A DNA stretch of 64,000 nucleotides from Rhodoferax sp. AJA081-3 (GTDB lineage: Bacteria > Pseudomonadota > Gammaproteobacteria > Burkholderiales > Burkholderiaceae_C). The stretch's first letter is position 1, and each line of letters begins with the position of its first letter. The stretch covers positions 3,348,001 through 3,412,000 of the forward strand of contig NZ_CP059068.1 of assembly GCF_017798165.1 (NCBI RefSeq), read 5' to 3'. Position numbers and translations under genes: made by a program. Positions 2,865-63,107 of this stretch are shown here, in pieces. Under the pieces are notes generated by a model. The model saw nothing but the letters and a program-made list of their open reading frames with translations, searched no databases and was not told the origin of the DNA.

Positions 2865-4001
2865 TCATTCTGCATCAATCATTGTCAGATACCGCTGCGC
2901 TATACACGCGGCCATTTGTGTATCACTAAAGCTGGCAAGATAACGCGCCCTACTCGCGTGGCCCATGCGTATCCTGAGCGCAGGATCACCCTGCAATCGG
3001 TCTAGACAACGGGTTAAGGCTGTGTGGTTTCCTGCTGGCACCAAAAATCCGTTCACACCATCTTCAACCAGCTCGCGGACGCCACCGACATCACTAGCCA
3101 CAATTGGCAGACCCGCACACATGGCCTCAATAATTGCCAGTGGAAGACCTTCGTATCGGGAGCACAGAACAAAGACCCCGGCCTGTGCTAGCAGTTGTGG
3201 CACCTTGCGACTGAGGCCCAAGCAGTCAACATGCAAATACTTGTCCGGAGTCCCGGACAGCACCCGTTTGCGAAAACCGGGCGAATCGGTTCCTTCTCCG
3301 ACCAACACCAATCGAAAAGAAGTGATGGAATTCTGATAGGACTCAAGCAGGAGATCATGGTCTTTTGCGTGACAAACACGCGCCACCATGATGACATTTG
3401 AATTGTGTTCCACTCGCGCAAGGCAGCCGTGATCCCGAATACCGTTATGAACCGTGAGGCAGCGATTGGGGTTAAGCCCCAGCCGTTCCAACCCCTCGTG
3501 CCGATCTGCATTCGAGACAAAAATATAAGATGTGCGAGGAATGATGGATAACATCCGCTCCACCCCGTACACGATGCTACTCTGGAACTTCGCGCGACCG
3601 GCACCGAATCCCCAGCCGTGAACTGTATATAGGCATGGCAAACGAAGGGCATAGGCAGCCAAACGTGCGATCATCCCTGCCTTGCTGCTATGGGCATGCA
3701 AAAGAGCAGGGCGCTCAGACCGGACAATCCTCAGGAATGCCAGCAAGCATTGGAAGTCACGCACAAAGTTAATGCTGCTCCTGAGTGTGGGAACAACCGT
3801 GCTCGGGATACTTTTCTCCAATAGGGCCTGACGTACTGGGCCGTCTTCCCCAAAGACGATGAATAGATCGAAGTCGGCCTCCAACCTGGTGACAAGTGTC
3901 AGCACGTGAATGGGTGCGCCGGCCCAATCCGCATTGGTGGAAATGATAAGTATCTTCTTGCGGACAGCAGACAATTGACTTCCCATTACTCCATTCCTCA
4001 T
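2865..4001 (-). CDS. GT4-family glycosyltransferase
   Basis: Cytoplasmic GT-B glycosyltransferase of 378 aa, first gene of the leftward glycan operon. It shows an N-terminal strand KKILIISTNADWAGAPIHV, a LLHAHSSKAG acceptor-domain motif, VHNGI, and the C-terminal donor-site SRYEGLPLAIIEAM plus ASDVGGVREL loop. Start at ATG 4001; a second in-frame ATG lies six codons later. Upstream, 64 bp separate it from the divergent ligase-like gene, so promoters for both directions should lie there. Substrate unknown. Confidence 0.9.
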   Translation of the reverse strand: MRNGVMGSQLSAVRKKILIISTNADWAGAPIHVLTLVTRLEADFDLFIVFGEDGPVRQALLEKSIPSTVVPTLRSSINFVRDFQCLLAFLRIVRSERPALLHAHSSKAGMIARLAAYALRLPCLYTVHGWGFGAGRAKFQSSIVYGVERMLSIIPRTSYIFVSNADRHEGLERLGLNPNRCLTVHNGIRDHGCLARVEHNSNVIMVARVCHAKDHDLLLESYQNSITSFRLVLVGEGTDSPGFRKRVLSGTPDKYLHVDCLGLSRKVPQLLAQAGVFVLCSRYEGLPLAIIEAMCAGLPIVASDVGGVRELVEDGVNGFLVPAGNHTALTRCLDRLQGDPALRIRMGHASRARYLASFSDTQMAACIAQRYLTMIDAE

Positions 4002-56573: not shown

Positions 56574-58007
56574 ATGCCACGTCGCGCCACCAAAATTGTT
56601 GCCACCCTAGGCCCCGCTTCCAGCGATCCCGCACTGCTGGAGCAGATGATCCGCGCCGGCGTGAACGTGGTGCGGCTCAACTTCAGCCACGGCAAGGCGC
56701 AAGACCATATCGACCGCGCCCGCTTGGTGCGCGAAGCCGCCCAGCGCGCCGGCCGCGAAGTGGCCATCATGGCCGACCTGCAGGGCCCCAAGATCCGCGT
56801 TGGCAAGTTTGCCGAGGGCAAGGTCTTCCTGGAGCCCGGCCAGAAATTCGTATTGGACGCCGCCCGCACCGAGCTGGGTGACATCGACGCCGTGGGCCTG
56901 GATTACAAGGCTCTGCCCCGCGAGGTCAAGGCCGGCGACGTGTTGCTGCTCAACGACGGCCTGATCGTCATCACCGTGGACGCTGTCAAGGGCGAGGCGA
57001 TCTACACCACGGTCAAACTGGGCGGCGAGTTGTCCAACAACAAGGGCATCAACAAACAGGGCGGTGGCCTTTCAGCCCCGGCGCTGACCGCCAAGGACAT
57101 GGAAGACATCCGCACGGCGATGAGTTTCCAGGCCGACTATGTGGCGGTCAGCTTCCCCAAGAACGCCACCGACATGGAAATGGCGCGCCAGCTGTGCAAC
57201 GTAGCCGCCGCCGAATACAACCACAAGCCCGGCCTGATTGCCAAGATCGAACGCGCCGAAGCCATCCCCAAGCTGTTGGAGATTCTGCTGGCCAGCGACG
57301 GCATCATGGTCGCCCGCGGTGACTTGGCGGTAGAGGTGGGCAATGCCATCGTGCCGGGCCTGCAAAAACGCATGATCAACCTGGCCCGCGAGCACGACCG
57401 GGTGGTTATTACCGCAACCCAGATGATGGAGTCCATGATCACCAACCCGGTGCCCACCCGTGCCGAGGTCAGCGACGTGGCCAACGCCGTGCTGGACGGC
57501 ACCGACGCCGTGATGTTGTCGGCCGAGACCGCCGCCGGCAAGTACCCGCTGGAAACGATCATCGAAATGGCCAAGATCTGCCACGCGGCCGAGGGCCACG
57601 AAGACTTTGAGCTGGAGGCCGACTTCACCGGCAAAACCTTCCATCGCATCGACCAGACCATTGCCATGGGTGCACTGTTTACGGCCCACCACCTGGGTGC
57701 CAAGGCGATTGTGGCCATGACCGATAGCGGCTCCACCGCCTTGTGGATGAGCCGCCACCTGATCCGTGTGCCGATTTATGCGCTGACCTCCAAGGTGGCG
57801 ACGCAGCGCAAGATGGCGCTGTACCGCAATGTGCGCCCCCTGTTTGTGGACACCAGCGCAGACCGCGATACGGCCTTGGTGCAGGCGGAGAACCATTTGA
57901 AGTCCCGCGGGATTGTGCAGACGGGGGATGTGTATGCCATTACCTGTGGGGAGCCTATGGGGTCGCCTGGGGGCACCAATATGTTGAAAATTTGCAAGGT
58001 CGGTTGA
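56574..58007 (+). CDS. pyk: Pyruvate kinase
   Basis: 477 aa cytoplasmic enzyme converting phosphoenolpyruvate and ADP to pyruvate and ATP. Landmarks are RRATKIVATLGPASSDPALL, VRLNFSHGKAQDH, IMADLQGPKIRVGKF, IAKIERAEAIPKLLEIL, DGIMVARGDLAVEVG, TATQMMESM and SAETAAGKYPLE. GAGGAG lies upstream of ATG 56574. The next gene on the strand is fba, after a spacer carrying a structured repeat. Confidence 0.98.
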   Translation: MPRRATKIVATLGPASSDPALLEQMIRAGVNVVRLNFSHGKAQDHIDRARLVREAAQRAGREVAIMADLQGPKIRVGKFAEGKVFLEPGQKFVLDAARTELGDIDAVGLDYKALPREVKAGDVLLLNDGLIVITVDAVKGEAIYTTVKLGGELSNNKGINKQGGGLSAPALTAKDMEDIRTAMSFQADYVAVSFPKNATDMEMARQLCNVAAAEYNHKPGLIAKIERAEAIPKLLEILLASDGIMVARGDLAVEVGNAIVPGLQKRMINLAREHDRVVITATQMMESMITNPVPTRAEVSDVANAVLDGTDAVMLSAETAAGKYPLETIIEMAKICHAAEGHEDFELEADFTGKTFHRIDQTIAMGALFTAHHLGAKAIVAMTDSGSTALWMSRHLIRVPIYALTSKVATQRKMALYRNVRPLFVDTSADRDTALVQAENHLKSRGIVQTGDVYAITCGEPMGSPGGTNMLKICKVG

Positions 58008-58043
58008 GTCTTTAAAAACCTGCTTAGGCTCTGGACCCGCCCG

Positions 58044-58129
58044 GCGCAGGGGGTGGGTACCGCCGTTCGTGTCCCCCGCCCGCTACGCGGGCTCCTCCTT
58101 TACCTCACTTTGGTACCCACCCCTTGTGC
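58044..58129 (+). repeat. Family-C structured repeat, copy 1 (pyk-fba spacer)
   Basis: Outer arms 58044-58061 (GCGCAGGGGGTGGGTACC) and 58112-58129 (GGTACCCACCCCTTGTGC) pair over 18 positions, two of them G-T. The core 58062-58111 has a fixed left part GCCGTTCGTGTCC, an inner hairpin GCCCGC-TAC-GCGGGC (58078-58092) and a fixed right part CCTTTACCTCACTTT. Copy 2 at 62932-63023 keeps the fixed parts but has different arms and a different inner hairpin. Confidence 0.85.
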
Positions 58130-58140
58130 AGGGCTGCGTC

Positions 58141-58167
58141 TTGGCAGTTTTGCCAGCCAGCTAAAAT
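58141..58167 (+). promoter_or_regulatory. Possible fba promoter
   Basis: TTGGCA (58141-58146) and TAAAAT (58162-58167) resemble -35 and -10 boxes, but the spacer is only 15 bp. The sequence sits 54 bp before the fba ATG and just right of the family-C repeat. AGGGG lies near the start codon as a ribosome site. Confidence 0.35.
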
Positions 58168-58221
58168 CGGGGGATCGGTACAAGTTACCAAGCGGTTACC
58201 AACTTCCCAGGGGATTTCACT

Positions 58222-59286
58222 ATGGCTCTCGTCTCAATGCGCGAACTGCTGGACCACGCAGCCGCCAACGGCTACGGCATTCCGGCCTTCAACGTCAACA
58301 ACCTGGAGCAGGTCCAGGCCATCATGTCGGCCGCGGACGAGGTCGGCGCACCGGTCATCCTGCAGGCCAGTGCTGGCGCCCGCAAATATGCCGGTGAGCC
58401 TTTCATCAAACACCTGATCCAGGCTGCCTGCGAAGCCTATCCCCACATTCCGCTGGTTATGCACCAGGACCACGGTACCAGCCCCAAGGTTTGCGAGGGC
58501 GCCATAAGCCTGGGCTTTGGCTCGGTGATGATGGACGGCTCGTTGATGGAAGACGGCAAGACCCCTGCCAGCTTTGAATACAACATGGAAGTGACCCGCA
58601 AGGTTGTGGAAATGGCGCACCGCACCGGCGTGACGGTTGAAGGTGAGCTGGGATGCCTGGGCAATCTGGAAACCGGTGAAGCCGGTGAAGAAGACGGCAT
58701 CGGTGCCGAAGGCAAGCTGGACCACAGCCAGATGCTGACCGACCCCGAAGAGGCCGCCACCTTTGTCAAGGGCACGCAACTGGACGCGCTGGCTATTGCC
58801 ATCGGCACCAGCCATGGCGCCTACAAGTTCAGCCGCAAGCCCACGGGCGACATCCTGGCCATCAGCCGCGTCAAGGAAATCCACGCCCGCATCCCCAACA
58901 CCCACTTGGTGATGCACGGATCGTCCTCCGTGCCGCAGGATTTGCTGGCCATCATCAACCAGTACGGCGGTAAGATGAAAGAGACCTACGGTGTGCCTAT
59001 CGAAGAGATCCAGGAAGCCATCAAGTACGGCGTGCGCAAGATCAACATCGACACCGACATCCGCCTGGCCATGACCGGCGCAGTGCGCAAGTTCCTGTTT
59101 GAGAACCCCGACAAGTTCGATGCCCGCGAGTGGCTCAAGCCCGCCCGCGAAGCCGCCAAGGCCATCGCCAAGCAGCGTTACATGGAGTTCGGTTGTGAAG
59201 GCCAGGGCTCCAAGGTCAAGGGCGACAGCCTGTCAGTGATGGCCACCCGTTACGCCAAGGGTGAGCTTGCTCAGGTAGTTCAATAA
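58222..59286 (+). CDS. fba: Fructose-bisphosphate aldolase, class II
   Basis: 354 aa zinc-dependent aldolase of glycolysis and gluconeogenesis, long (Calvin-subtype) class IIB form. Landmarks are [36 protein letters not shown] (zinc His), [25 protein letters not shown] with an acidic insert ([12 protein letters not shown]), [10 protein letters not shown] and [12 protein letters not shown], then [16 protein letters not shown]. Followed by a clear terminator. Confidence 0.98.
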
Positions 59287-62914: not shown

Positions 62915-62931
62915 AAGCTTGGTATTCGCCC

Positions 62932-63023
62932 GCAGCAGAGTCAGGGTAAGCGCCGCCGTTCGTGTCCTCCGGCCTTCGGCCTCCCCCTTTACCTCACTTT
63001 GGCGCTCACCCCGACTCTGCTGC
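62932..63023 (+). repeat. Family-C structured repeat, copy 2
   Basis: Outer arms 62932-62954 (inner part GTCAGGGTAAGCGCC) and 63001-63023 (GGCGCTCACCCCGACTCTGC...) pair at 21 of 23 positions. The core 62955-63000 has GCCGTTCGTGTCC, inner hairpin GGCC-TTC-GGCC (62971-62981) and CCTTTACCTCACTTT. The fixed parts are identical to copy 1; arms and inner stem are unrelated to it in sequence. Confidence 0.85.
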
Positions 63024-63107
63024 TCGACAGTGGCAACGCATTGACGCTTCTGGACTGGCACAGCATGATGGCAAGCCCAACGACCGCGTAGCAGGGAGAG
63101 CCTCACC

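Follow-up and report, generated by a model that had tools for sequence, protein, structure and literature searches.

A dispersed, probably REPIN-like double-hairpin repeat between pyk and fba in Rhodoferax sp. AJA081-3

The stretch of DNA analyzed here (the window) covers 64,000 nucleotides, G000:C1:3348001-3412000, of the 5.17-Mb single-contig genome of Rhodoferax sp. AJA081-3. Between pyk (positions 56574 to 58007, plus strand) and the fba open reading frame (58222 to 59286, plus strand), it carries a structured element, which a preliminary description of the window placed in the fba leader and regarded as one of two copies of a conserved structure. The locus raises the question of whether this structure is a regulatory leader of fba or a member of something larger that happens to lie there.

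Structure of the unit and the folded strand

Covariance model R1 matches copy 1 on the minus strand from 58035 to 58135 (G000:C1:3406035-3406135:-; 90.3 bits; E value, 1.4e-17), 27 nt from the stop codon of pyk, and copy 2, its top match in the own genome (110.1 bits), from 62928 to 63024 on the same strand. The letters and coordinates of the two copies had been given correctly in the preliminary description, but their extent had not, the true spans being approximately those of the R1 matches. In copy 1, the outer stem is formed by GCGCAGGGGGTGGGTACC (58044 to 58061) and GGTACCCACCCCTTGTGC (58112 to 58129), both written as on the plus strand. The minus strand, which is most likely the folded one (see below), carries the fixed core parts GGGGGACACGAACGGC (58062 to 58077) and AAAGTGAGGTAAAGGAGGA (58093 to 58111) on either side of an inner hairpin, GCCCGC-GTA-GCGGGC (58078 to 58092), with a GNA triloop. 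Identical fixed parts are found in both copies, 58062 to 58074 and 58097 to 58111 of copy 1 corresponding to 62955 to 62967 and 62986 to 63000 of copy 2. The inner stems differ as first described, with GCCCGC/GCGGGC at 58078 to 58083 and 58087 to 58092 in copy 1 and GGCC/GGCC in copy 2. The outer arms also pair as stated, but they are not unrelated, as had been thought; seen across the family, they look like diverged versions of a single arm (GCAGCAG..GGGGT..CGCC). A check of Rfam (release 15) found no family at or above its gathering score in the window, the best sub-threshold match at copy 1 being a microRNA model with 17.9 of 55 bits.

Across the family, the unit on the minus strand is built from an outer stem of 24 bp, the sequence of which is nearly free, an inner hairpin, and a purine-rich core that is conserved (AGGTAAAGGAGGA / GGGGGACACG). 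The core reads AAAGTGAGGTAAAGGRGGA / GGRGGACACGAACGGC in subfamily A, to which the window copies belong, and GCGNAGGTAAAGGAGGA / GGGGGACACGNA in the commoner subfamily B, in both cases on the minus strand, and it probably includes G.A pairs. R1 was built from 26 of the 27 first copies (subfamily A; L023 was dropped before alignment A3), and a second model, R2, was built from 42 copies of subfamily B, for which a score cut kept 62 of 76, three with long inserts were excluded, and 42 of the 62 were picked by eye for alignment A4. Covariation was tested on these alignments, as the preliminary description had proposed, and both stems covary strongly in both subfamilies. Among the 26 subfamily A copies, 94.1% of 728 cells are paired, both sides have changed at 22 of 28 pairs, and the covariation score is 0.706, versus 0.223 for shuffles (0 of 500 as high) and at most 0.128 for slid controls. 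The 42 subfamily B copies have 97.0% of 1,218 cells paired and both-side changes at 22 of 29 pairs, with a score of 0.646 versus 0.169 for shuffles (0 of 500 as high) and at most 0.110 for slid controls. Pairing arms are thus kept by the other copies as well.

One position pair of the core is A.G in 103 of 132 distinct copies and exchanged for G.A in 14 (5 have A.A, 3 have others, and 7 are unmatched), and a further pair in subfamily B (n = 42) is C-G in 30 copies, U-A or U-G in 5, G-C in 3, and unpaired in 4. Of the 124 copies with a scorable hairpin, 95 have a C(GNA)G inner loop (GCA in 43, GAA in 41, and GTA in 11), and C(GNA)G triloops are unusually stable in DNA hairpins. Three own copies (G000:C1 3019768, 3105451, and 3305690) contain an additional GGC-GNAA-GCC hairpin within the inner hairpin, giving a GNRA-type loop on the folded strand, which is GCAA in two of them and GTAA in one. 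The core of copy 1 (58062 to 58077 and 58093 to 58111, minus strand) has four GGR/GGA steps (GGAGGA ... GGGGGA) flanking the inner hairpin, and these steps could form a two-layer G-quadruplex with the inner hairpin as a loop.

A G.T mismatch appears as A.C when the opposite strand is read, and the ratio of G.U to A.C therefore reveals the folded strand. On the minus strand, this ratio is 65:7 in the 26 subfamily A copies and 54:7 in the 42 subfamily B copies, both counted on the MAFFT alignments that also gave the covariation scores. Alignments fitted to the model structure give ratios of 265:23 for 132 distinct copies, with 24 of 24 columns in agreement, and of 56:5 for a set of 38 rows that represents other genera and families. 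The 132 copies, which overlap the 65:7 set, derive from 163 matches in all, of which 150 were aligned rows and 18 of these were removed as duplicates, and the 38 rows remained after 4 of 42, which were overlapping opposite-strand rows, had been removed before the count. Orthologous copies at one locus (plsC-mtgA) give 27:5 and 27:3. This large excess of G.U over A.C makes the minus strand, which is antisense to both pyk and fba, the most likely bearer of the selected fold, and not the plus strand on which the preliminary description had drawn it; the counts are compatible with both RNA and single-stranded DNA. This signal is carried by the family and not by copy 1 itself, whose plus strand folds slightly better (−60.1 kcal/mol; z score versus shuffles, −6.65) than its minus strand (−54.5 kcal/mol; z score, −3.63) and which has two pairs that are G.U on the plus strand.

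Distribution, inverted pairs, and placement

The two-copy family of the preliminary description is real, but its size had been understated: with 76 R1 matches in its own genome, copy 1 is a member of a dispersed family. The exact two-part pattern has 6 matches there, versus 0 for a backwards control, and is present in 21 stretches of named genome records, the titles of which indicate Burkholderiales lineages in 14 cases (Rhodoferax, Curvibacter, Janthinobacterium, and others) and only a beta proteobacterium or Pseudomonadota in 7. R1 matches are found in 83 of 100 same-genus genomes, the own genome included, ranging from 0 to at least 41 copies per genome, and the element is present in some and absent from other related species. 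Of the 399 genomes sampled from the order, 18 have R2 matches, in 10 of 159 genera; 7 of these genomes are from the own family and 11 from two other families. In the class, 3 of 274 genomes have matches, two of them from the own family; the order and class samples both contain G000 and G148. Because R2 matches are lacking from most of the order and class genomes, these genomes act as a negative control for the model. The own copies are 89 to 105 nt long, with a mean GC content of 67.7% (range, 58 to 75%), and copies elsewhere are 85 to 116 nt long. Against plasmid records, copy 1 gave one weak 35-base match, and two further queries against plasmids and one against phages gave no match. The exact two-part pattern has no match in viral contigs, and the core pattern has one (L170, 7368 to 7413), near the end of a 42.8-kb contig and beside ORFs that appear phage tail-like by eye.

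Pairing of neighboring copies was counted in five complete or near-complete genomes with 226 copies, for four of which 150 of 155 matches were listed. Among the 226 copies listed, 51 pairs of neighbors are no more than 160 bp apart, comprising 49 in −+ order, 2 in +− order, and 0 in the same direction. In the usual arrangement, the 5′ ends face each other with about 20 to 150 bp between them, and the members of a pair are mostly of different arm types, as judged by eye. Close pairs contain 34 of 48, 30 of 46, 10 of 29, and 8 of 27 copies in four of the genomes and 16 of 76 in the own genome, where neither window copy has a pair partner among the R1 matches. The same 5′-facing pairs are found in other families, with 46 to 150 bp between the copies in 14 of the 15 pairs listed and 651 bp enclosed by the fifteenth. 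Three consecutive copies in another genome (L165, 284 to 703; −, −, +) include the sole close same-direction neighbors noticed, which are 86 bp apart.

Gene positions were taken from a home-made codon scorer, not a gene finder, and names given without a Pfam accession (plsC, mtgA, purU, hrpA, gltB, and DUF1178) were assigned by eye. This crude predictor places 17 of the 76 own copies inside a predicted CDS, 9 on the same strand and 8 on the opposite strand. Forty unpaired intergenic own copies have both neighbors scored, with 3 lying between divergent genes and 25 between codirectional genes. Most of the latter are nearer the stop codon of the upstream gene (21 of 25, with 3 nearer the start and 1 tie; P = 2.8e-4), and the median distance of unpaired intergenic own copies to a stop codon is about 20 nt. 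The bias in replication strand is not significant (31 of 76; P = 0.14; origin from the GC skew of fetched stretches only), nor is that in orientation to neighboring genes (16 versus 9; P = 0.23). This absence of a significant orientation preference, together with the occurrence of the structure at 76 places in the own genome, argues against the locus-specific regulatory RNA envisaged in the preliminary description.

A REPIN-like reading and its RNA alternative

With moderate confidence, copy 1 can be read as a single (half) copy of a nonautonomous REPIN-like repeat, the unit of which is a strand-specific double hairpin; this repeat seems related to the miniature mobile elements of bacteria and does not look like an fba switch. 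According to the available text of the sources, a REPIN consists of two inverted REPs and a spacer, with singles as remnants (PMC3116915), and a REP is a palindrome of 20 to 50 nt after a tetranucleotide, usually GTAG (PMC8266576). As far as these texts go, the repeat described here resembles REPINs and BIMEs in its short dispersed copies, inverted pairs, variable spacer, mostly intergenic position, and one-strand structure, but it differs in its unit of about 85 to 116 nt and in arms that are nearly free in sequence around a conserved core. In addition, within a 16-nt region spanning the 5′ end, 3 of 76 own copies have GTAG and 4 of 76 have CGTC, the copies of the own genome have no adjoining transposase gene, and a Y1 transposase is not required.

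The own genome has one Y1_Tnp (PF01797) gene, which lies beside a gltB-like gene; it has no R1 match within 20 kb, and its flanks contain only two short motif matches, both of them isolated. A PF01797 gene is present in 93 of the 100 same-genus genomes, among which drafts may miss genes; subject to the same limit, 5 of the 7 genomes without it carry 12 to 40 copies of the repeat, and 15 of the 17 genomes without matches have it. A RAYT or Y1 transposase is therefore not supported as the mobilizer, being neither needed nor sufficient by genus-wide presence and absence. The number of copies shows a weak positive correlation with the number of Y1_Tnp genes (Spearman coefficient, 0.21; P = 0.036), which leaves room for a contribution of extra Y1 genes.

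In a REPIN-like system of this kind, the outer stem would present the core on a single strand, and a putative enzyme supplied in trans may recognize the core there. Movement, present or past, would involve the inverted pair as a unit, single copies, including those in the window, would be remnants of pairs, and the bias toward gene 3′ ends may reflect where insertion is tolerated or targeted. Several observations speak against this reading: no mobilizer was found, only 16 of the 76 own copies are in close pairs, and no target duplication was recognized, CTAG lying near both ends in 5 of 76 own copies without a general pattern. The pairs at mtgA, moreover, look vertically inherited, which is not required of a purely selfish element. 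The two most similar own copies share 95.4% identity and so give no indication of fresh movement. The lack of a significant replication-strand bias and the same-direction neighbors at L165 also weigh against this reading. If the REPIN-like reading is right, most of the species sampled in an environmental genus carry a structured repeat family that is sparse in other families and that keeps a defined single-strand fold while its stems change freely. The folded strand would then be readable from sequence alone, by comparing G.U with A.C, which provides a way to look for an enzyme that reads it.

This REPIN-like repeat is possibly an already-named one, the nature of which had not been worked out. 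The available part of PMC3110155 describes the Beta-proteobacterial repeat element (BRE), of about 90 bp, in Bordetella, Rhodoferax ferrireducens (4 copies), Polaromonas JS666 (29 copies), and others, with a length of 75 to 91 bp, a GC content of about 69%, and a mostly intergenic position, some copies being inside genes. In the same text, BRE copies form variable-number repeats and, at some loci, direct tandem arrays in which a few bases separate one copy from the next, and in Bordetella one copy lies within the region giving the 80-nt RNA BprJ1. Measured against this description, our repeat comes close in length (own copies being slightly longer), GC content, and taxonomy and is likewise mostly intergenic. 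It differs in that tandem arrays have no counterpart among the close neighbors counted above, Bordetella not being identified among the genomes searched, and the available description gives no fold, strand, inverted pairing, or core. Compared by description only and not by sequence, BRE may be the same family. The preliminary description had named an existing repeat entry as something that would count against it, and this may apply in part through BRE, again by description only. No LexA-like motif, as in the LexA-neighbor test for Bordetella BRE, was found in loci L211 to L244. PMC5217627 reports the largest number of spaced motif pairs for R. ferrireducens, without showing them in the text, and our literature search found no other description of the fold, strand, pairing, or inserts.

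The folded strand could instead work as RNA, as a small structured RNA of the minus strand or as part of a transcript, protein-bound or self-acting, which would make the repeat a dispersed RNA family; we consider this rather unlikely. Covariation in which G.U pairs are common and A.C pairs rare would suit an RNA, but folded DNA likewise tolerates G.T better than A.C. The exchange of A.G for G.A in the core and the GNRA-type loop in three own copies also favor RNA, as does the BRE copy in the BprJ1 region of Bordetella, as described in the available part of PMC3110155, if BRE is this repeat family. However, the repeat has no significant gene orientation preference, either overall or inside predicted CDSs, and the inverted pairing is hard to account for by RNA.

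Inserts, gene ends, and the pyk-fba spacer

In the five genomes, neighbors 401 to 1,000 bp apart are in −+ order in 4 of 4 cases among the matches listed. Three insert-bearing pairs, one from these four and two noticed elsewhere, all lie at one locus, flanked by mtgA and a plsC-like gene for an acyltransferase, and hold different inserts. The insert of the own genome is 639 bp long and contains a P-loop kinase-like ORF (PF01583; E value, 3e-6), the second (634 bp) encodes a GNAT acetyltransferase (PF13302; E value, 2e-23), and the third (941 bp) contains an HNH ORF (PF01844; E value, 4e-13) and one further ORF; these inserts score poorly for host codon use. Among 50 same-genus plsC-mtgA loci (30 plus 20 further fetched; 100 genomes searched), 10 have an empty pair with 34 to 54 bp inside, 3 have a pair with an insert, 2 have a single copy, and 35 have no match in the stretch covered. 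The two arm types keep the same order in all thirteen pairs, the orthologous elements show compensatory changes in 15 of 24 columns (15 copies) and 10 of 24 columns (13 copies), and the pairs look vertically inherited across species.

A bolder reading, which we regard as improbable, is that a cassette system has the inverted pairs as its ends and that a putative recombinase reading the single-stranded core would insert, swap, or remove genes between the hairpins. An integron attC site has a strand-specific structure and a sequence that is loosely conserved, and a comparable site lies next to a variable gene here, at one locus; the difference is that two inverted sites flank the insert, that no array was seen, and that mainly one locus is involved. 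An insert-bearing pair in G087, beside a gene read as DUF1178, has the element in 0 of 30 relatives' loci, so the cassette idea draws mainly on plsC-mtgA. Among the other 400- to 1,000-bp pairs, one encloses a purU-like gene and one is inside an hrpA-like CDS, and not all pairs therefore hold foreign genes. At L308 (G083, 2873 to 3121), a small gene lies between the plsC-like gene and mtgA with no R1 match there, which means that gene uptake at this locus also occurs by other routes. Given these counterexamples, gene exchange is kept as a bold and not the main reading. If the pairs also exchange genes, they would provide a new route of single-gene acquisition.

The proximity of unpaired intergenic copies to stop codons would also fit a 3′-end element, the hairpin of which terminates transcription or shields the mRNA 3′ end of the gene just upstream. 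We judge this unlikely as well, since a TTTT run follows 0 of 76 copies on the folded strand and 2 of 76 on the other strand, no terminator was called near copy 1, the elaborate conserved core is unneeded for termination or protection, and the crude predictor puts 17 of 76 copies inside predicted CDSs. It is very unlikely that the arms are complementary without selection, through template-switch correction of the inverted repeat. Such correction is an established mechanism, acts on long palindromes, and gives pairing in any sequence, but it predicts equal G.T and A.C remnants, whereas the ratio found is about 5 to 12 to 1, and the core has covarying positions of its own. That the element acts in cis as an RNA in the fba leader, for instance as a riboswitch, would fit its strong fold and its position between pyk and fba but is scarcely credible, because the element is absent at this site in the 25 readable relatives, lies upstream of a conserved block, has its folded strand antisense to fba, and has 75 more matches elsewhere in the own genome.

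The pyk-fba loci of 29 relatives were obtained from a search of 60, and 4 of the 29 lacked one flank and were not counted, leaving 25 same-genus relatives with a readable spacer of 61 to 511 bp. An R1 match or core motif is found in 0 of these 25 spacers, and TA[AG]AAT and GTTACC are both kept before fba in 24 of the 25, though the element is absent. In the window, the corresponding block (TAAAAT ... GGTACAAGTTACCAAGCGGTTACCAACTT; 58162 to 58205, plus strand), recognized from the relatives' spacers, runs from TAAAAT at 58162 through GTTACC repeats ending near 58205 and is outside and downstream of the element. The preliminary description was therefore right in placing the element between pyk and fba but not in placing it in the fba leader. 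Covarying stems beside a gene, as this case warns, are not necessarily a regulatory leader. No consensus promoter or terminator was called at 58162 to 58205, so promoter and leader are putative labels for this block. The block has the form TAAAAT ... GGTACAAGTTACCAAGCGGTTACCAACTTC, which is similar in 24 of the 25 same-genus spacers, and the repeated GTTACCAA within it looks like a regulator site or leader signal. In G003 (L159; G003:C298, near 1450 to 1560), the core and one arm lie before fba, with a left arm that does not pair with the right one and with pyk on another contig, which reflects either rearrangement or recombination within the core or a misassembly. The pyk-fba spacer of another species (L155) contains a different palindromic repeat, as seen by eye.
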